Source: Spirochaetota bacterium (GTDB lineage: Bacteria > Spirochaetota > Spirochaetia > Treponematales > Rectinemataceae). Taken from it: DNA of 38,224 nucleotides. Numbering within the stretch: position 1 is the first letter of the stretch; each line of letters begins with the position of its first letter. Made by a program: the position numbers and the translations under genes. The notes beneath the pieces were generated by a model. It was not told where the DNA came from. It did not search any database and was given only the letters and a program-made list of their open reading frames with translations. Shown here in pieces: positions 1,361 to 27,627 of the stretch. Location of the stretch: NCBI GenBank assembly GCA_029265615.1, contig JAJUIB010000023.1, positions 1 through 38,224 of the forward strand, read 5' to 3'.

Positions 1361-1390
1361 AACATAGGTGCACGGTTGCCAATTTGTCAA
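1361..1390 (-). promoter_or_regulatory. sigma70-like promoter of the decarboxylase gene
   Basis: On the minus strand TTGACA (1385-1390), an 18-nt spacer and TATGTT (1361-1366) give a good sigma70-type promoter. The expected start point near 1354 leaves a leader of about 65 nt carrying the AGAGG ribosome site. It overlaps the opposite-facing promoter at 1376-1404, so the two may interfere. Confidence 0.6.
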
Positions 1391-1404
1391 GGATAGGCTA
1401 TACC
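1376..1404 (+). promoter_or_regulatory. Promoter of the membrane protein gene, nearly leaderless
   Basis: TTGCCA (1376-1381), a 17-nt spacer and TATACC (1399-1404) point right. The predicted start point (about 1411) lies only about 3 nt before the ATG at 1414, so the mRNA would be leaderless or almost so. The -35 box overlaps the divergent decarboxylase promoter. Confidence 0.5.
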
Positions 1405-1413
1405 GCAAGGCCT

Positions 1414-2190
1414 ATGACCGCGTTTTTTATCAAGAAGGCCTTTTTCGACGGCTGGGATCATCTCTTCGGGCTTGTCCTCCTCAACCTCGGCTTTTCGTGC
1501 CTCTTTGCGCTTTCCCTGCTTCTGCCTTCCGTGGCCGCCTCAGGCAGTACAGTTCTCGTGGTCGCGCTCGGCGCCCTCCTTGCGCTCCTTGCCGCGGTCT
1601 GGTTTTCGGCCTGCGTCCATGCGCTTACACGGGTCGCCGATTTTGGCGCGCTGTGTGCGCGTGACGTTCTTGTGGCCTTCAAGGCAGGCTTCTTCCCCGG
1701 CCTGCAATACGGGCTCATGCTCCTCTTCGCGTATGCCGCTATCAGCGCTGGCCTGCCCTTCTACCTATCGCGGGGCGGCTTTTTCGGAGCCCTCGCTGCG
1801 GGACTCCTCCTTTGGACCGCCGTTGTGCTCGTGTTGGCGCTCCAGTGGTATCTGCCCCTCCATGCCCGCCTCGGCGGCGGGTTTGCGAAGAATCTCAAAA
1901 AGAGCTTCATTCTCTTTTTCGACAATGCGGCCTTTTCGCTCTTTTTGTTCGTGTACAACGCGCTGTCGCTTGCGCTCTCGGTTGTGCTCGCCTTTCTCGC
2001 TCCGGGTGCCGCAGGCGTCGCTCTTGCGCTTGCCGATGCGCTCCGCCTTCGCCTCTATAAGTATGACTGGCTCGAGACGCACGCAGGGCAAGGGCGCGCC
2101 GATATCCCCTGGGGGGAGCTCCTTGCGGAGGATCGGGAGCTTGTCGGCAAGCGGACGCTCCGTGGCATGATCTTTCCCTGGAAAGAGTGA
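1414..2190 (+). CDS. Polytopic membrane protein of unknown function
   Basis: 258 aa from ATG 1414, with about five or six hydrophobic segments separated by short loops and a charged C-terminal tail (about the last 45 residues, after LRLYKYDW). The layout loosely recalls DUF624/YesL-type membrane proteins, but I do not recognise it firmly and assign no function. An in-frame TTG at 1384 would add ten residues, but it falls inside the promoter spacer. The ATG lacks a proper Shine-Dalgarno sequence and sits about 10 nt after the -10 box, which argues for leaderless translation. It is followed by the PilZ gene, which has its own promoter. Confidence 0.7.
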   Translation: MTAFFIKKAFFDGWDHLFGLVLLNLGFSCLFALSLLLPSVAASGSTVLVVALGALLALLAAVWFSACVHALTRVADFGALCARDVLVAFKAGFFPGLQYGLMLLFAYAAISAGLPFYLSRGGFFGALAAGLLLWTAVVLVLALQWYLPLHARLGGGFAKNLKKSFILFFDNAAFSLFLFVYNALSLALSVVLAFLAPGAAGVALALADALRLRLYKYDWLETHAGQGRADIPWGELLAEDRELVGKRTLRGMIFPWKE

Positions 2191-2256
2191 AATTTTCTTG
2201 TCGCGCAAAAGGAGGGTCTTAGGCGGCGTTTCTCTGTTTGCGCTCGCTCACCGTCG

Positions 2257-2285
2257 TTGACCAAGAGCGCCCAATGACCTATTAT
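2257..2285 (+). promoter_or_regulatory. Promoter of the PilZ-TPR-phosphatase unit, short leader
   Basis: TTGACC (2257-2262), an exact 17-nt spacer and TATTAT (2280-2285) form a strong sigma70-like promoter. The start point near 2292 leaves about 8 nt before the ATG at 2300, and those bases contain no ribosome site. Confidence 0.6.
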
Positions 2286-2299
2286 TTCCCGCGAAGCCT

Positions 2300-3259
2300 A
2301 TGTCGATCACCACGAGCCAGCAGATACTGAAATGGTACGACCTCTATAAGGCGATCGACGTCACCTATACCAAGGAAATCATCAAGACGGTCGGCCTTGA
2401 CCCCCGGCACGTCTACCTCAAGTGTGTCGGGGAGCAGTGGCCCTGCGTGATTTATTCGACGTCCTTTCTGGGCGCCAAGGTCATTGCGAGCGCCAAGCCC
2501 ATCCTCAACGAGAAGATCAAGCGCGCCAACAACCTCGTTTCCCTGCGCTTCAGCTTTCTGGTCGAAGGCAAGCAGGACCCCGTGAGCTTTTTTGTGACCG
2601 GCCGCGCGACGGGCTTCTCCCCCTACACCCAATCGGGGGGTGACCTCCAGTTCATGACCATCGAATACACCCAGCGGCCGCCTGACGACCTTATCGAGAT
2701 CATGGGGCGTCTTCTCGATGCCAACATGAATTCTGCGCGGCGACGAGACGAGCGCATTTTGCTCACCCCCGATGCGATGCGCAAGCTCTGTCTCGTCTCG
2801 CGGGATACGGTGCTCTATGTTCAGGGTGTGCCGCGTAAGTGCATTTTGCGTGACCTTTCCTTTTCGGGCGCCAAGATCATCATCGTCGGTCTTGCAAAAT
2901 TCCTTGTCGGCAAAGACTGCGTCCTCCGCCTCGAGATGGAGGAGCCGCGCGAGCTCCTCGAGATACGGGGGTCCATTGTGCGCTACGAGGATGTCGAGGG
3001 CCGGAAAGACCTTGCGGCGCTTGCCTTGCGCTTTGACGAAGCCTCCATACCCATGACCTATAAGCTCCACATCAACGATTACCTCAGTCAGGTGCGCCAA
3101 TCGCGCGTTGAGGAACCCGCCGCTTCCGCCCAAGGCCCATCTGGGGCCGCAGCGTCCTCGGCGCCGCCGTCCTCGGCGCCGCCCCCAGTTTCGCCTGAGT
3201 CACGCGCATCCGCGACCGCCACACCCACTTCCTCAGGAGGAGGAGTCCCCCATGCCTAG
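2300..3259 (+). CDS. PilZ-domain c-di-GMP receptor protein
   Basis: 319 aa, cytoplasmic. The N-terminal half (about 1-135) resembles the PilZN-type domain seen before PilZ in spirochaetes. The PilZ domain (about 145-260) carries both c-di-GMP-binding motifs: R148-x3-R152 in ARRRDERI and (D/N)xSxxG as DLSFSG (185-190). Borrelia PlzA is a two-domain relative that links c-di-GMP to motility and gene expression; a similar receptor role here is inferred. The last 45 or so residues are a low-complexity Ala/Pro/Ser tail encoded partly by two perfect 15-bp repeats. The 3' end contains the ribosome site of the TPR gene and overlaps that gene by 8 nt, so the two are translationally coupled. Confidence 0.88.
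   Translation: MSITTSQQILKWYDLYKAIDVTYTKEIIKTVGLDPRHVYLKCVGEQWPCVIYSTSFLGAKVIASAKPILNEKIKRANNLVSLRFSFLVEGKQDPVSFFVTGRATGFSPYTQSGGDLQFMTIEYTQRPPDDLIEIMGRLLDANMNSARRRDERILLTPDAMRKLCLVSRDTVLYVQGVPRKCILRDLSFSGAKIIIVGLAKFLVGKDCVLRLEMEEPRELLEIRGSIVRYEDVEGRKDLAALALRFDEASIPMTYKLHINDYLSQVRQSRVEEPAASAQGPSGAAASSAPPSSAPPPVSPESRASATATPTSSGGGVPHA
3153..3182 (+). repeat. 15-bp tandem repeat x2 inside the PilZ gene
   Basis: Two perfect copies of CGTCCTCGGCGCCGC. Read in frame they encode the SSAPP pentapeptide repeat of the PilZ C-terminal tail. Nearly the same unit, on the other strand and in another frame, builds the lipoprotein signal peptide at 34981-35055. Confidence 0.85.
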
Positions 3260-4391
3260 TTCCGCCAGTCGCGATGCTGCCGCCGAAGCCGCCCTCGCGC
3301 GCCTTGTGTACATCGAGTTGCCGCCCGCCCTCGCGCGGGAGATCGGATCGTTCCGTCCGGATCCCGCGGTTCCCATACCCGTCGAACCAGGGGTCGATCC
3401 TGAGCGTTTCGACCCCCGAACGCTCAGTTGGGAGGCGATCGTCGCCGGCATGCTTCGTCTCCTTGCCTGGGCTCCCGATCACGAACACGCCGCCTATTAT
3501 CGGGCCTTCGTCAAGGCGGTGAAGCCCAAGATTCTCGCCGAGCTGTCGGAGGCGGGCATCGCGAAAGCGCGCAACAAGGACTGGGAGGTCGCCGAGGAGA
3601 TTTTTCGGGCCCTGCGTGGCCTTTATCCCGAGGCGCCCGAGCCTCTTATCGATCTTGCTGTGATGTACGAAGACCGCGCTGAGGCGCTTTCGCAGGCGGG
3701 CAGGGAGGATGCCGCCGAGGAGTTCGACGGCAAGGCCTTCGAGAGTTACAAGCTCCTCCTTGCGATGGAGCCGCCCTTTCCCGAGGCGTATTTCAATGCG
3801 GGCTTTTTCTTTCTGCGGAAACGCAACTACGACCGTGCGCGGAGTCTTTTTGAAACCTACGCAAAGATCGGCGACAACGAGGAACGCAAGGCCAAGGCTC
3901 AGGAGATCGTCAAAATGCTTGGCGCTCAGGGGTACCTCGACGAGCTCTTTAAGGAGGCCTACGACGCCATACGTCTCGGGCGTGATGTCGAAGGGCTCGA
4001 AAAGGCCCGCGCCTTCCTTGACAAAAACCCGCGCGTCTGGAACGCCTGGTTTCTCGTCGGCTGGGCCTGCCGACGGCTCGGCCGGTGGGAGGAGGGCCGC
4101 ACCGCTTTTGAAAAAGCGATCGAGCTTGGTGCCGAGGGCGCGGACGTGCAGAACGAGCTGTCGATCTGCCTTATGGAGCTCGGACGGCTCGGCGAAGCCA
4201 AGGCCGCGCTCGAGGCGGCCCTCCGCGCAGAGCCTGAAAACGTGAAGATCATCTCGAATCTCGGCGCGCTTGCGCTCAAGCGCGGCCGCCCCGAGGAGGC
4301 TGCGGGATTTTTCCGCACCGCCCTCGAGATCGAGCCAGAGGACCAGGCCGCACGGCGCTGGCTTGCACAGCTCGAGGGGGGCGAGGCCTAG
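3252..4391 (+). CDS. Tetratricopeptide repeat (TPR) protein
   Basis: 379 aa from ATG 3252, preceded by an ideal AGGAGGAGG ribosome site (about 3235-3243). After an N-terminal globular part (about 1-95) comes a chain of TPR-like helix pairs: degenerate units around 100-215, then clear ones from about 290 to the end (WFLVGWACRRLGRWEEG, VQNELSICLMELGRLGEA, IISNLGALALKRGRPEEA). There is no signal peptide, so a cytoplasmic scaffold is likely. It overlaps the PilZ gene by 8 nt and is followed 11 nt later by the phosphatase, so the three probably form an operon. The partner and function are unknown; coupling to a c-di-GMP receptor suggests a complex but does not prove it. Confidence 0.85.
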   Translation: MPSSASRDAAAEAALARLVYIELPPALAREIGSFRPDPAVPIPVEPGVDPERFDPRTLSWEAIVAGMLRLLAWAPDHEHAAYYRAFVKAVKPKILAELSEAGIAKARNKDWEVAEEIFRALRGLYPEAPEPLIDLAVMYEDRAEALSQAGREDAAEEFDGKAFESYKLLLAMEPPFPEAYFNAGFFFLRKRNYDRARSLFETYAKIGDNEERKAKAQEIVKMLGAQGYLDELFKEAYDAIRLGRDVEGLEKARAFLDKNPRVWNAWFLVGWACRRLGRWEEGRTAFEKAIELGAEGADVQNELSICLMELGRLGEAKAALEAALRAEPENVKIISNLGALALKRGRPEEAAGFFRTALEIEPEDQAARRWLAQLEGGEA

Positions 4392-4402
4392 GAAAGCGGG
4401 CA

Positions 4403-5443
4403 ATGGACGAAGGCGATCCCCGGTCGGCATCCTGCGCGCTTCTTGCTCGCGCCACTATGCTTGCGCGGCGCGAGGGGCTTCCTGCGGCACAGGAATTTGC
4501 CGAGCTCGTCGCTGCGGCCACCGCCATTCTCGATACCGAGCCCCGAGAGCTGCGTCCTTGTGACTCACGGGGCTTACCCGGTGGCTTAGTCGAGCTTCCG
4601 GATATGCTGACCGTTCTTGTGCCCGATCTTCATGCCCGGGTCGATTTTCTCGCCGCCGTTCTTGCCTGGCGTCCGGCGTTTGATGGCCGTCCGGAGGCTC
4701 CATTTGCGGAGCTTCTTGCGCGGGGCAAAGCCCAACTTGTGTGCCTGGGCGATGCGTTCCATTCCGAGGGCCCGGGTGCCGCGGAGCGCTGGAGCGCCGC
4801 CTACGAGGAATATCTCGGCGGCTGGGCGAGCCATGCGGCCATGGATGCCGAAATGGCGCGCACGCTGGCAACGGTCGAGCTCGTTCTTGATTTGAAGTGC
4901 ATCTTTCCCCGCAGGGTGCACTACCTCAAGGGCAACCACGACAACATTACAAACGAAAACGCCCATGGCGATCACCCGTTTTACAAGTTCGCCGCCGAGG
5001 GGGAGATGGTCGTCTCCTGGTTCGCGCAGCATTATGGTTCCTCTCTGCTTGCCGCCTATCGCGCGTTTGAGCGCGCCCTTCCGATTGCGGTGCGCGGCGC
5101 CCGCTTCGTCGCAAGCCATGCGGAGCCGGCCGTGCCGCTTTCCCGCACGGACATCGTCGAGTGCAGGCACAGGCCTGAGGTCGTGGAGGCGCTTATCTGG
5201 ACCCCGAACGGCGCGGCAGAGGAGGGCTCGGTCGAGGCGGGGCTTACTGCGCTCTTTGGCGCTGCGGCGCCGGGCGCGCTCTGGTTCGGTGGACATCGCC
5301 CGGTTTCGGGGCGGTATGCGCTCAGGCAGGCAGGCCGTTTTGTCCAGTTCCACAATCCCGTGTCGTGGCCCGTTGTGGTGCTTATGCCCGGCGCCGATCC
5401 CGACCCTGAGCGCTGCGTACACACTCTGGCCATGCGCGCTTGA
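4403..5443 (+). CDS. Calcineurin-like metallophosphoesterase
   Basis: 346 aa, cytoplasmic. The metal-binding motifs of the calcineurin-like phosphoesterase fold appear in order: PDLHARVDF (D75, H77), CLGDAFH (G116-D117), KGNHDN (N178-H179-D180), SHAEP (H239) and FGGHRPV (H298). The family hydrolyses phosphomonoesters or diesters with two metal ions; the substrate cannot be inferred. The variable segment between GD and GNHD (about 118-175) is helical and long. GGAAAG-type bases precede the ATG, 11 nt after the TPR stop. The -35 box of the next gene's promoter overlaps this gene's TGA stop. Confidence 0.87.
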   Translation: MDEGDPRSASCALLARATMLARREGLPAAQEFAELVAAATAILDTEPRELRPCDSRGLPGGLVELPDMLTVLVPDLHARVDFLAAVLAWRPAFDGRPEAPFAELLARGKAQLVCLGDAFHSEGPGAAERWSAAYEEYLGGWASHAAMDAEMARTLATVELVLDLKCIFPRRVHYLKGNHDNITNENAHGDHPFYKFAAEGEMVVSWFAQHYGSSLLAAYRAFERALPIAVRGARFVASHAEPAVPLSRTDIVECRHRPEVVEALIWTPNGAAEEGSVEAGLTALFGAAAPGALWFGGHRPVSGRYALRQAGRFVQFHNPVSWPVVVLMPGADPDPERCVHTLAMRA

Positions 5444-5469
5444 CCCCCCCGTGCCTACGCGGCTAGTAT
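5440..5469 (+). promoter_or_regulatory. Promoter of the GerMN gene, leaderless
   Basis: TTGACC (5440-5445, overlapping the upstream TGA), an 18-nt spacer and TAGTAT (5464-5469). The start codon lies 10 nt after the -10 box, so the transcript should begin at or just before the ATG at 5480. The bases between contain no ribosome site. Confidence 0.5.
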
Positions 5470-5479
5470 CCTTTCGCAT

Positions 5480-6349
5480 ATGGCTGACCGAAGGCGTTCC
5501 TCCTCCCGGTCCGGCGGCGGCTCAGGCTGTGTCGTCTGGCTTATCCTCCTCTGTGTCGTTTTTTTGCTCTTTCTCGCGAACCTGAACAAGATTCGCGAGA
5601 CCCTGGAGCGGACGAATTTTACCGAAATCATGAAAACCGAGCGCGGCAAAGGAAAGGATTCGCCGCGTGCGCCGCAATCAGGCCTTCCCTCCGCCAGAGA
5701 ACCGGCGCCGCCGTCGGCATTGCCGTCGTTGGTATCGCCAACGCCGGCGGCTTTGCCGGGAACAGGCACCCCCGTCGAAGCGCCGCCGGCGACGTCGCCC
5801 TCGGCGCCAGGTGAGCAAACGCAGGACAAGTCCGCGGCCTTGCGGCCGCGCGCAGACGCTAAAGGCGGGCGATCCGAGCCGGCAAAGCCCGCGCCGAAGT
5901 CTCAGGAAGTGCGGCCGTCGGTAGCAAAGACGCGAAGCGCGCGCCTTTATTTTGTGCGCATTGACGAGGATGGTGTTATTTCCCGCCACGAGGTTACACG
6001 GGTCATACCTGCTTCCGATGCGCCCCTTTCCGACGCACTTGCGGCGCTCCTCAAAGGGCCGAGTGAGGAGGAACTCAGGCGCAATCTCATTTCGCTCATC
6101 CCCCAAGGGACGGTGCTACTTTCCGCCCAGGTACGCGGCTCAACCGCCGTTTTGAATTTCAACGAGGCCTTCATGTACAATCGCTATGGCGTCGAAGGCT
6201 ATGCCGGACAGCTTAAACAGATCGTCTACACCGCGACCGCCTTTTCGACGGTTCATGATGTGCAAATTCTCATCGAAGGGCAGAAGCACGATTATCTCGG
6301 CGGCGAAGGGGTCTATATCGGGGCGCCGCTATCTCGCAATAGTTTTTGA
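5480..6349 (+). CDS. Membrane-anchored GerMN-domain protein
   Basis: 289 aa. A short basic N-terminus, one transmembrane anchor (about 17-34, rich in V, L, F), a Pro/Ala/Ser/Lys-rich linker (about 50-150), then a GerMN domain (about 155-289) with the typical run from ARLYFVRIDEDG through LLKGPSEEE to VEGYAGQLKQIVYT and VQILIEGQ. GerMN domains occur in spore-germination GerM but also in non-sporulating bacteria as extracytoplasmic, envelope-associated modules. The predicted topology is N-in with the domain in the periplasm. Spore germination is not implied here. The linker is GC-rich and repetitive, so its length may vary. It is transcribed from its own promoter. Confidence 0.85.
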   Translation: MADRRRSSSRSGGGSGCVVWLILLCVVFLLFLANLNKIRETLERTNFTEIMKTERGKGKDSPRAPQSGLPSAREPAPPSALPSLVSPTPAALPGTGTPVEAPPATSPSAPGEQTQDKSAALRPRADAKGGRSEPAKPAPKSQEVRPSVAKTRSARLYFVRIDEDGVISRHEVTRVIPASDAPLSDALAALLKGPSEEELRRNLISLIPQGTVLLSAQVRGSTAVLNFNEAFMYNRYGVEGYAGQLKQIVYTATAFSTVHDVQILIEGQKHDYLGGEGVYIGAPLSRNSF

Positions 6350-6478
6350 GCCTTGGACTCTTTTGTGTATTTTGATAGTTGAACCACTATTTTTGATTTG
6401 CAAGACGCCCTTTACGCTCTGAAATTTCTATTGTAGACTCCCTAGGGTAATCGCAGTGCTATCGCAAGGAGGCTTATC
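6350..6478 (+). promoter_or_regulatory. AT-rich leader region of the glycine cleavage operon
   Basis: This 129-nt gap is clearly more AT-rich than its surroundings and should hold the operon promoter, but no -35/-10 pair with good spacing can be fixed. The paired aptamer pattern of a glycine riboswitch was looked for and not seen. It ends with AAGGAGG (6466-6472), a near-perfect ribosome site 6 nt before the CTG at 6479. Confidence 0.4.
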
Positions 6479-7573
6479 CTGAACTCCACCCGTCTCCATG
6501 GTTGGCATATCGCGGCAGGAGCCAAGATGGCTCCCTTCGCCGGGTACGATATGCCTATTTCGTATCCAACCGGCGCAGTCGAAGAGCATCTCATCACGCG
6601 CCGCTCCGTCGGGCTCTTTGACATCGACCACATGGGCCAGATCGAGGTCTCCGGTCCTGGTGCGGACGAGTTCGTTTCGCGGATGGTCTCTGCGACCGTC
6701 CTCGACATGAAGGACTGGGATGCCCGCTACTCCCTCCTCCTCGATGACAAGGGGCTCGTGCTCGACGATCTTTTTATCTACAAGCTTCCCGGCCGCTGGT
6801 GGATAGTCGTGAACGCCTCGAACCGCGAGGCCGACTACGCCTGGTTTACGCGCCATGCGCCTCAGGGACTCAAAATCGAGGACAAGTCCGATGCGACCTA
6901 CATGATCGCCGTCCAGGGACCTCGCGCGATCGAGCTCATGGATCTGGTGGCGGATCGCAAGGTCTCCGAGTTCCCCCGCTTTACCGCAGGCGAGATCAAG
7001 GTCGAGGGCATTCCTATTCTCTTTGGTCGCACCGGCTACACGGGCGAGGACGGCGGCGAGCTGTTTTTCCCCGCGGAAAGCGCCGAGCGGCTGTGGACTC
7101 TTCTTCTCGAGCGCGGGGAGAAGGCGGGCATCGAAACGCGGCCGATCGGGCTTGCCGCGCGCGATTCACTCCGCTTCGAAGCGGGGATGCCGCTTCATGG
7201 CCACGAGATTAGCCCGACGATCAACCCCATCGAGGCGGGCTTTAAGTGGGCCTGCGGCCTTGAAAAGGACTTTGTCGGCAAGGCCGCGGTTGAGGCGGTG
7301 ATCGCCGCAGGTCCCGCGCGGAAGCTTGTCGGCCTCGAGGTGTCAGGCGGCGTCCCCCGCGAGGGCTACGAGGTGCTCGCCGAATCCGGGGAAAAGATCG
7401 GCGTCTGTGTCGCGGGCATGTTCTGCCCGACGGTGAAGAAGTACGCCGCTAACGCGTTCGTCCTTCCCGCGTTCGCCAAGGCCGGGACAAAGGTTCAGGT
7501 GCTTATCCACGGCAAGACGAAGGAGGCGCTTGTGGTGAAGCGCCCCCTCTACGTTCCCGCCTACCGCCGGTAG
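6479..7573 (+). CDS. gcvT: Glycine cleavage T-protein (aminomethyltransferase), CTG start
   Basis: About 364 aa. Transfers the methylene group from lipoyl-bound aminomethyl to tetrahydrofolate, releasing ammonia. Family marks include KMAPFAGYDMPISY, GLFDIDHMGQIEV, LDDLFIYKL, VNASNREADYAWF, IAVQGPRA, GRTGYTGEDGGELF, RDSLRFEAGMPLHGHEI and the C-terminal KRPLYVPAYRR. Homologues begin about 15 residues before the first ATG (6527). The matching segment here (NSTRLHGWHIAAGAK) is encoded in frame from a CTG at 6479 that follows AAGGAGG by 6 nt; the only other start-like triplets in frame back to the TAG at 6443 are ATC codons. An ATG start at 6527, with AGGAG just upstream, is the alternative but would remove conserved residues. 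First gene of gcvT-H-PA-PB. Confidence 0.93.
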   Translation: MNSTRLHGWHIAAGAKMAPFAGYDMPISYPTGAVEEHLITRRSVGLFDIDHMGQIEVSGPGADEFVSRMVSATVLDMKDWDARYSLLLDDKGLVLDDLFIYKLPGRWWIVVNASNREADYAWFTRHAPQGLKIEDKSDATYMIAVQGPRAIELMDLVADRKVSEFPRFTAGEIKVEGIPILFGRTGYTGEDGGELFFPAESAERLWTLLLERGEKAGIETRPIGLAARDSLRFEAGMPLHGHEISPTINPIEAGFKWACGLEKDFVGKAAVEAVIAAGPARKLVGLEVSGGVPREGYEVLAESGEKIGVCVAGMFCPTVKKYAANAFVLPAFAKAGTKVQVLIHGKTKEALVVKRPLYVPAYRR

Positions 7574-22987: not shown

Positions 22988-24067
22988 TTAGGCATGCAGA
23001 TTCGTCGCGTGCGACGGCGTCGCGTGCGGCGGCGCCGTGTGCGGCGATGGTGGGGCCGCGGAATCGCGGATGACGAGCTCTGGTTCGATCCGCACGGTCC
23101 GAGGCGGTCGGGAACCTTCGTCGTGGAGCGCTGAAAGGAGGAGCTCCGCCGCCGCCGCACCAACACTTCGCATTTTGAGGTCGACCGAGCTTAGCTGTAT
23201 TCGCCCCGAAACCGCGAGGATCGTGTCGTCGTGGCCAATGATCGAAAGATCCTCAGGGATGCGCAAGCCGGCCTTGGTCGCGGCGTTGACGGCGCCGCGC
23301 GCCATGAGGTCGTTACAGGCAAAGAGCGCGGAAGGGAGGCGCCCTTCGCGGATGGCGGCGCCGACCGCCTCCTCTGCAAGGGGGATCGCGTCTTCCGTGT
23401 TGCCGTCCGCGATGCGAAAGACAAGCTCGGGCCGCTCAGGTAGCCCTCGCTCGGAAAGCCACTTTGCGCGGGCTGCTTCCTTGACGTCGTAGGAGAAGCC
23501 GCGCTCGCCGCGGAGCAGGGCGACCTCGCGGTGCCCGAGGCCCACGAGGTAGTCCATCACGCGACGCATGCCGAGCCGCTGGTCGACATAGACCTGGTCG
23601 AGCGGTGAAGCAGTGATCGCGGCGTTCGAGTGGATGAGGACGAGTGGGCGCCGCGTGGCTTCGCGGGCAAAAAAGCCGTCTGAGAAGTTCTCTTCCGAGG
23701 CGTCGATGACGATAATGCCGTCCGCGCGGCGCGCGGCGAATTCCCGGATGTAGGCGCGCTCGAGCTCCGGTCGATCGTCGGTCGCCGCGAGGAGCATCAT
23801 GAGCCCTGCATCGCGGAAGCGGCGCTGCATGGCCTCGGTGATCTCCATGTAGTACGCATTCGTGATCGAGATGATGAGGACGCCGACGGTTTTCGATTTT
23901 TTCGTCATGAGTCCGCGCGCTAGAGAGTTCGGCGTGTATTCGTGGCGGCGCACCACTTCGAGGACGCGCTCCCGCGTTTGAGGCTTGACGAGATCTGGAT
24001 TGTTGAGCACCCTTGAGACGGTGGCGGTTGATACCCCGGCCTCAAGGGCGATATCTTCAATACGCAT
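22988..24067 (-). CDS. LacI-family transcriptional repressor of the galactoside locus
   Basis: 359 aa. The N-terminal LacI helix-turn-helix and hinge are plain (MRIEDIALEAGVSTATVSRVLNN, about 1-23; hinge about 45-58), followed by the periplasmic-binding-protein-like effector domain (about 59-335: VGVLIISITNAYYMEI, RRADGIIVIDAS, ALFACNDLMARGAVNA, LSIIGHDDT). Presumably a galactoside or galactose relieves repression. A perfect operator lies 11 nt before its ATG, so it should repress itself, the alpha-galactosidase, probably the beta-galactosidase, and the transporter operon. The last 20 or so residues are a His/Ala/Pro/Thr pentapeptide repeat encoded by a 15-bp minisatellite, not normal for the family. 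Confidence 0.95.
   Translation of the reverse strand: MRIEDIALEAGVSTATVSRVLNNPDLVKPQTRERVLEVVRRHEYTPNSLARGLMTKKSKTVGVLIISITNAYYMEITEAMQRRFRDAGLMMLLAATDDRPELERAYIREFAARRADGIIVIDASEENFSDGFFAREATRRPLVLIHSNAAITASPLDQVYVDQRLGMRRVMDYLVGLGHREVALLRGERGFSYDVKEAARAKWLSERGLPERPELVFRIADGNTEDAIPLAEEAVGAAIREGRLPSALFACNDLMARGAVNAATKAGLRIPEDLSIIGHDDTILAVSGRIQLSSVDLKMRSVGAAAAELLLSALHDEGSRPPRTVRIEPELVIRDSAAPPSPHTAPPHATPSHATNLHA
23003..23047 (-). repeat. 15-bp tandem repeat x3 in the LacI gene 3' end
   Basis: Three units (23003-23017, 23018-23032, 23033-23047) of the form CGTCGCGTGCGGCGG with a few substitutions. In the protein they give HTAPP, HATPS and similar pentads. Copy number can change without breaking the frame. 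Confidence 0.8.
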
Positions 24068-24077
24068 GGCAGTCCTT

Positions 24078-27627
<3,550 letters not shown>

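Follow-up and report, generated by a model that had tools for sequence, protein, structure and literature searches.

Do genes that lack a ribosome-binding site, and whose sigma-70-type promoters nearly touch their start codons, give rise to mRNAs with practically no 5' leader? This question is raised by contig JAJUIB010000023.1 of a Spirochaetota bacterium (assembly GCA_029265615.1; order Treponematales, family Rectinemataceae), of which positions 1 to 38,224 were analysed (38,224 nt, hereafter the window). It concerns three genes on the plus strand, named here after the position of their ATG: gene 1414 (1414..2190), encoding a 258-aa protein without a Pfam match; gene 2300 (2300..3259), encoding a PilZN3-PilZ protein (Pfam PF20424, 1.5e-57; PF07238, 2.5e-9) of the type of PlzA, a receptor of cyclic di-GMP (c-di-GMP); and gene 5480 (5480..6349), the product of which has a Germane domain (Pfam PF10646). 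Our analysis argues, with a probability which we put at roughly 0.88, that the three are leaderless or near-leaderless transcription units and that this mode of expression exists genome-wide alongside genes led by a Shine-Dalgarno (SD) sequence.

Direct reading of the window revealed the three promoters exactly at the positions and with the spacers given in a preliminary description of this DNA, and no SD site was seen in front of any of the three genes, as had also been proposed. The promoter of gene 1414 (1376..1404, plus strand) has the form TTGCCA-17-TATACC, with the -35 hexamer at 1376-1381 and the -10 hexamer at 1399-1404. That of gene 2300 (2257..2285, plus strand) is TTGACC-17-TATTAT (2257-2262 and 2280-2285), and that of gene 5480 (5440..5469, plus strand) is TTGACC-18-TAGTAT (5440-5445 and 5464-5469). 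Between the end of the -10 box and the ATG (distance d) there are 9, 14 and 10 nt, respectively. Given the usual gap of 6 nt between the -10 box and the transcription start, the predicted leaders are about 3, 8 and 4 nt long. A scan for consensus sigma-70 promoters, with hexamers at a spacing of 16-19 nt, yielded 9 promoter-like sites in 20 kb, while 3.7 +/- 1.9 were expected from shuffled sequences. The sites at 2257-2285 and 5440-5469 were among those detected, and their -10 boxes conform to the motif TANNNT located approximately 5-14 nt before the start. The site at 1376-1404 was absent from the scan because TATACC is without the final T, and by consensus the promoter of gene 1414 is the weakest of the three. 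Since an Rfam scan of the window gave no match at the gathering thresholds, no known leader RNA was overlooked at this level.

The orthologues of the three genes were compared in rows aligned at the start codon, and a row was counted as passing if it contained a promoter with d between 5 and 14 nt; of random positions drawn from these loci, 0.5-1.0% pass. Gene 2300 has orthologues in 22 of 30 relatives, which belong to five families, and a strict sigma-70-type promoter at d6-14 is present in all 22 rows (random positions, 0.6%). By eye, the -35 hexamer begins with TTGAC in 21 of them. Eight loci were found in the named collection, five already counted and three new; in two of the new ones TTGACC and a TA-box close to the ATG are seen again, and the third (L089) has the weaker combination TTGCTA/TATACT, as judged by eye. 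Close relatives of the window in this collection are metagenome-assembled Spirochaetaceae and other Spirochaetes, Treponema sp. being more distant. For gene 1414, orthologues exist in 28 of the 30 relatives, and in most of them residue 1 of the query stands opposite an ATG. Four of 29 places were left out, one at a contig edge (L042) and three with partial matches (L049, L050 and L051), and 16 of the 25 rows passed the strict-or-relaxed test (random, 0.5%). The TTGCC...TATACC geometry is retained in relatives of family f1 and partly in those of f4, and by eye TTGCGT...TATACC or a comparable pair can still be made out in several of the misses.

The promoter of gene 5480 was found in 18 of 21 rows (random, 0.6%) and in all three N-terminal pieces added later (L081 and positions inside L071 and L079), which makes 21 of 24. 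The main count had been made without L065, L071, L072, L074, L075, L076, L078 and L079 (match begins deep inside the protein) and without L081. In five other partial matches (L065, L072, L075, L076 and L078) no clear start was seen, although L075 has a GTG that is a candidate start and is accompanied by a promoter. Of the three misses, two belong to genus g10 (L060 and L061): here the gene follows an upstream in-frame stop codon at 6-9 nt, the promoter is gone and a G-rich, SD-like sequence is present. It looks as though the orthologue in g10 had become part of an operon and its own promoter had disappeared, which would amount to a switch from leaderless to SD-linked expression. An SD match of at least 5 was detected in 1 of 22 rows for gene 2300, in none of 25 for gene 1414 and in 1 of 21 for gene 5480. 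Because the same geometry recurs in the orthologues but is seen at no more than about 1% of random positions, the three promoters are not a product of chance. Outside the order, the PilZN3 genes vary. Two genomes of the same class (G035 and G076) have TTGACA-18-CATAGT with d=11, a third, small one (G101) has AAGGAG 5 nt before the ATG, and in other classes mostly SD-like sequences or no clear signal were found.

The same alignments bear on the possibility that the promoters are real and the assumed ATGs wrong, the true start codons being located further downstream so that the mRNAs would have ordinary leaders. Alternative in-frame starts are present in some orthologue rows, and the gene finder placed the coding onset of gene 5480 at 30 nt inside the open reading frame. 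However, the alignments of the orthologues begin at residue 1, with an ATG there in 21 of 22 (gene 2300), 24 of 25 (gene 1414) and 20 of 21 rows (gene 5480), and the conservation of the N-terminal protein sequence starts at or near the ATG. Moreover, the genome-wide data described below place the -10 box at a fixed distance of 6-7 nt from the called start, and mis-called starts would blur this peak. We regard downstream starts as very improbable.

Is this arrangement limited to three genes? For a genome-wide test we used the window and 40 further stretches, together 784,124 of the 2,704,066 bases (29%) of a genome that is present in 47 contigs. A simple hexamer gene finder, which picked the starts solely from the coding signal and the type of codon and was blind to upstream signals, delivered 680 genes, of which 604 had a closed 5' end and enough upstream sequence to be usable. 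With an SD match of at least 4 as the definition, 345 of these were SD genes and 259 were not. Among the 259 non-SD genes, TANNNT was found 19 times at d=6 and 16 times at d=7, compared to a baseline of 2.1 per position (d20-59), and the total for d5-11 was 69 versus 14.9 expected (Poisson, 2e-24). The SD genes showed a deficit in the same interval, with 11 versus 23.1 expected. Counted by gene, 63 of the 259 have the motif at d5-11, whereas mononucleotide shuffles of the 40 nt upstream of each gene gave a mean of 16.4 and a maximum of 29 in 1000 rounds. Thus, the enrichment of -10 boxes near starts without SD, which had been named beforehand as the test of the idea, was indeed found, with a peak at 6-7 nt; the excess at d5-11 corresponds to approximately 9% of all genes. 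The 63 genes start with ATG (52), GTG (10) or TTG (1). In line with a position at the head of transcription units, an upstream gene in the same direction within 25 nt was present for 5 of the 63, versus 77 of 204 SD genes. Pfam matches at E<=0.001 were obtained for 18 of 20 near-leaderless genes scanned, including methionyl-tRNA synthetase, a Mur ligase and a penicillin-binding protein.

Hexamers close to the ATG could also arise by chance or reflect an AT-rich, weakly structured start region used for S1-type initiation, with expression driven from further upstream. A raised A/T content before non-SD starts is also documented elsewhere, and S1 binding, too, has been proposed as its cause (PMC5397173). 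However, the signal found here is a hexamer with a TTG in the -35 region at fixed spacing: TTG occurs at 17/18 nt in 25 of the 63 genes, and in one gene each at 12/13 and at 22/23 nt. Further, the combination of -10 and -35 is retained in all 22 rows of gene 2300, and the signal avoids operon-internal genes. An origin of this kind is hard to reconcile with these data, and we give it very little weight. The base in front of the start codon is initiator-like as well. In the 31 ATG genes with d5-7, C is present at -1 in 84%, compared to 49% of 171 SD genes and 37% of 123 others, and a pyrimidine in 28 of 31, versus 111 of 171 SD genes (P=0.003), which is consistent with transcription start at the A of the ATG. 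Consistent with the enrichment, a promoter-centred count gave 22 in-frame ATGs at d6-11 and 2 at d12-17.

A third possibility concerns translation: 5' untranslated regions of 3-8 nt could carry a non-canonical ribosome site, such as a downstream element or another signal, instead of supporting true leaderless initiation. Gene 2300 retains 10-14 nt between the -10 box and the ATG in most relatives of families f1 and f4, and an AAGCCT-like stretch precedes the ATG in several of its relatives (seen by eye only). On the other hand, three orthologues of gene 2300 have d=6, and gene 5480, most orthologues of gene 1414 and the genome-wide peak fall at distances within 6-9 nt, which leave almost no leader. 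We therefore consider such a site unlikely.

Several observations weigh against leaderless expression as the explanation for all three genes and for the genome at large. The -10 box of gene 1414, TATACC, does not conform to TANNNT, and the strict promoter test was passed by only 1 of its 25 rows. For gene 2300, d is 14 nt in the window and 10-13 nt in many relatives, and therefore its mRNA is expected to be short-leadered rather than strictly leaderless. Promoters located further upstream could add leadered mRNAs. In the genome-wide data, the start codons come from our own simple gene finder, -35 matches of at least 4/6 occur at 26 of 63 sites near starts and at 64 of 217 far sites, just a marginal surplus (P=0.055), and the promoter-centred scan shows a rise at d6-11 for ATGs in the two other frames too (11 and 6). 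Finally, the outcome for G021, one of the genomes used for comparison, varies with the gene model that is used (P=0.03 for its own model, 8e-20 for that of the window genome).

Taken together, we favour leaderless or near-leaderless expression. With a promoter for the housekeeping sigma factor so near the start codon, RNA polymerase would start at the A of the ATG or up to about 8 nt before it. In mRNAs that start so close to the ATG there would be no room for an SD sequence, and initiation on a 5'-terminal or near-terminal AUG would thus be most likely, probably by the undissociated 70S ribosome. This type of initiation is established for other leaderless mRNAs. Judged by the excess over baseline, about 9% of the genes, mainly the first genes of transcription units, would use the leaderless mode. 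Both the exact 5' ends and the ribosome mechanism are inferred here from the DNA.

With the same pipeline, d5-11 totals above expectation were obtained for G027 (54 vs 29.2), G023 (61 vs 37.8) and G035 (26 vs 7.5). In Escherichia coli K-12 the excess was weak (27 vs 17.3) and unpeaked, with 4 genes each at d=6 and d=7. For G021 (70% GC) the totals were 6 vs 2.3 under its own gene model, which recovered too few genes (130), and 26 vs 2.1 under the model of the window genome. In addition, a fixed-pattern contrast was made, in which TTGAC and TATNNT were combined with an ATG either near or 20 nt further. The near/far counts were 264/135 in the order, with near favoured in 11 of 11 genomes, and 85/43 in the rest of the class, with near favoured in 5 of 6. 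In 103 other genomes of the phylum no near excess was found (2214/2237), and therefore the near-leaderless excess of the TTGAC type is not phylum-wide, though lineages that use promoters of another type, perhaps Leptospira among them, would escape this contrast. A pattern search restricted to a spacing of 18 matched in 1 of 30 genomes and was too narrow to be informative.

The region upstream of gene 1414 also harbours a promoter on the minus strand (1361..1390), detected in the consensus scan, which serves the decarboxylase gene 108-1289 and reads TTGACA (1390-1385)-18-TATGTT (1366-1361). Its -35 hexamer sits inside the spacer of the plus-strand promoter of gene 1414, so that the two overlap face to face. 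By eye, many relatives retain its hexamers, which read GTCAAG and AACATA/ACCATA on the plus strand. A CTTG...CAAG operator before gene 1414 was considered and dropped, GTCAAG being the -35 hexamer of the divergent promoter. There is room for an SD-bearing leader of about 65-71 nt in front of gene 108-1289, and AAGAGGT precedes its GTG (by eye). With a leadered SD gene on one side and near-leaderless gene 1414 on the other, both initiation modes would start in one intergenic region. Among 70 divergent pairs less than 400 bp apart in the genome sample, both genes fall in the near-leaderless class in 8 and one gene in 16. The pairs in which both genes look leaderless have gaps of 68-370 bp (L115 8554/8623, L094 2837/2920, L090 6711/6834 and five more).

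The coexistence of both modes had been proposed in view of strong SD sites at neighbouring genes, and two such sites bear this out. The gene of a TPR protein (3252-4391) has AGGAGGAGG before its ATG (3235..3252, plus strand; direct reading, Pfam), and AAGGAGG stands before gcvT (6479-7573, plus strand). The latter gene has an apparent CTG start 6 nt after AAGGAGG (region 6465-6481). In the 22 of 30 genomes matched by a family pattern search, its start codon is ACG (15), CTG (4) or ATG (3), always 5-7 nt after GGAGG. To our knowledge a conserved ACG start would be very unusual in bacteria, and our literature search found nothing on one. A fourth candidate promoter lies on the minus strand (24067..24106): TTGGCA (from 24106)-17-TACATT (ending at 24078), with the -10 box 10 nt before ATG 24067. 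Its initiation mode is ambiguous because AAGGA is also present in the gap. By eye only, the protein (24067-22988) looks like a LacI-type regulator. The palindrome TGTAAGCGCTTACA covers the -10 box of this near-leaderless promoter, and its position suggests possible self-repression of the gene.

If leaderless expression is correct, SD-trained gene finders may misplace the starts of such genes, and thus these genes bear on gene-start annotation. Gene 5480, which seems to exist in a leaderless and in an operon-internal, SD-linked form, could serve as a natural test of initiation modes. It is tempting to speculate, although we find this doubtful, that the order maintains an ancient leaderless regulon by selection, with the plzA-type gene near-leaderless in all 22 rows, which span five families, and that initiation is split in two, an SD-less mode favouring a 5'-terminal ATG and an SD-led mode tolerating CTG or ACG as in gcvT. 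With such a split, mRNAs could be translated selectively, either under stress or by altered ribosomes.

How does this compare to known systems? The preliminary description held that leaderless mRNAs are not a standard feature described for spirochaetes, and this does not agree with the literature. In Leptospira interrogans about 440 leaderless mRNAs were mapped by differential RNA sequencing and called a common feature (PMC5243855). For Borrelia burgdorferi, leaderless transcripts are reported to be highly frequent (PMC10618245), and in 2011 Zheng et al. predicted TA-led genes in 6 of 18 spirochaete genomes (mean 3.9%, range 1.8-6.9; PMC3160421). In Treponema denticola, one start mapped by rapid amplification of cDNA ends lies 14 bp from a start codon (PMC9481697). 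Our literature searches found no report of leaderless expression in free-living Treponema relatives and no transcript map for the Treponema group; with the present data, leaderless expression from clear and deeply conserved promoters would reach as far as these relatives. L. interrogans resembles the case described here in being a spirochaete with many 5' ends at 0-10 nt from the start alongside leadered genes (PMC5243855). It differs in that its 5' ends were mapped experimentally, while ours are predicted, and in belonging to a different order. Further, except for sigma-54 no general promoter motif was found in that study (PMC5243855), whereas the promoters found here are of the classical TTGAC/TATxxT type. 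The TA-led genes share with ours TANNNT at about 10-12 bp before the start and the lack of an SD sequence (PMC3160421), but TATACC of gene 1414 is outside this motif, and our value of about 9% exceeds the range of 1.8-6.9 of that survey, which used different methods. PlzA of B. burgdorferi has the same domain architecture as the product of gene 2300 and the same c-di-GMP motifs RxxxR and DxSxxG of PilZN3-PilZ proteins (PMC8323883), here present as RRDER and DLSFSG; the gene of this type in G101 differs in having an SD sequence in place of a near-leaderless promoter. Leaderless transcripts are known in Actinobacteria and Deinococcus, and as in our case the -10 box abuts the start codon and high-GC genomes use both initiation modes, but here the leaderless share is lower and SD-led genes are the majority. 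Leaderless genes of these two groups are also tabulated in PMC3160421. In summary, the predicted near-leaderless organisation is of a known kind and is newly shown, computationally, for this lineage.

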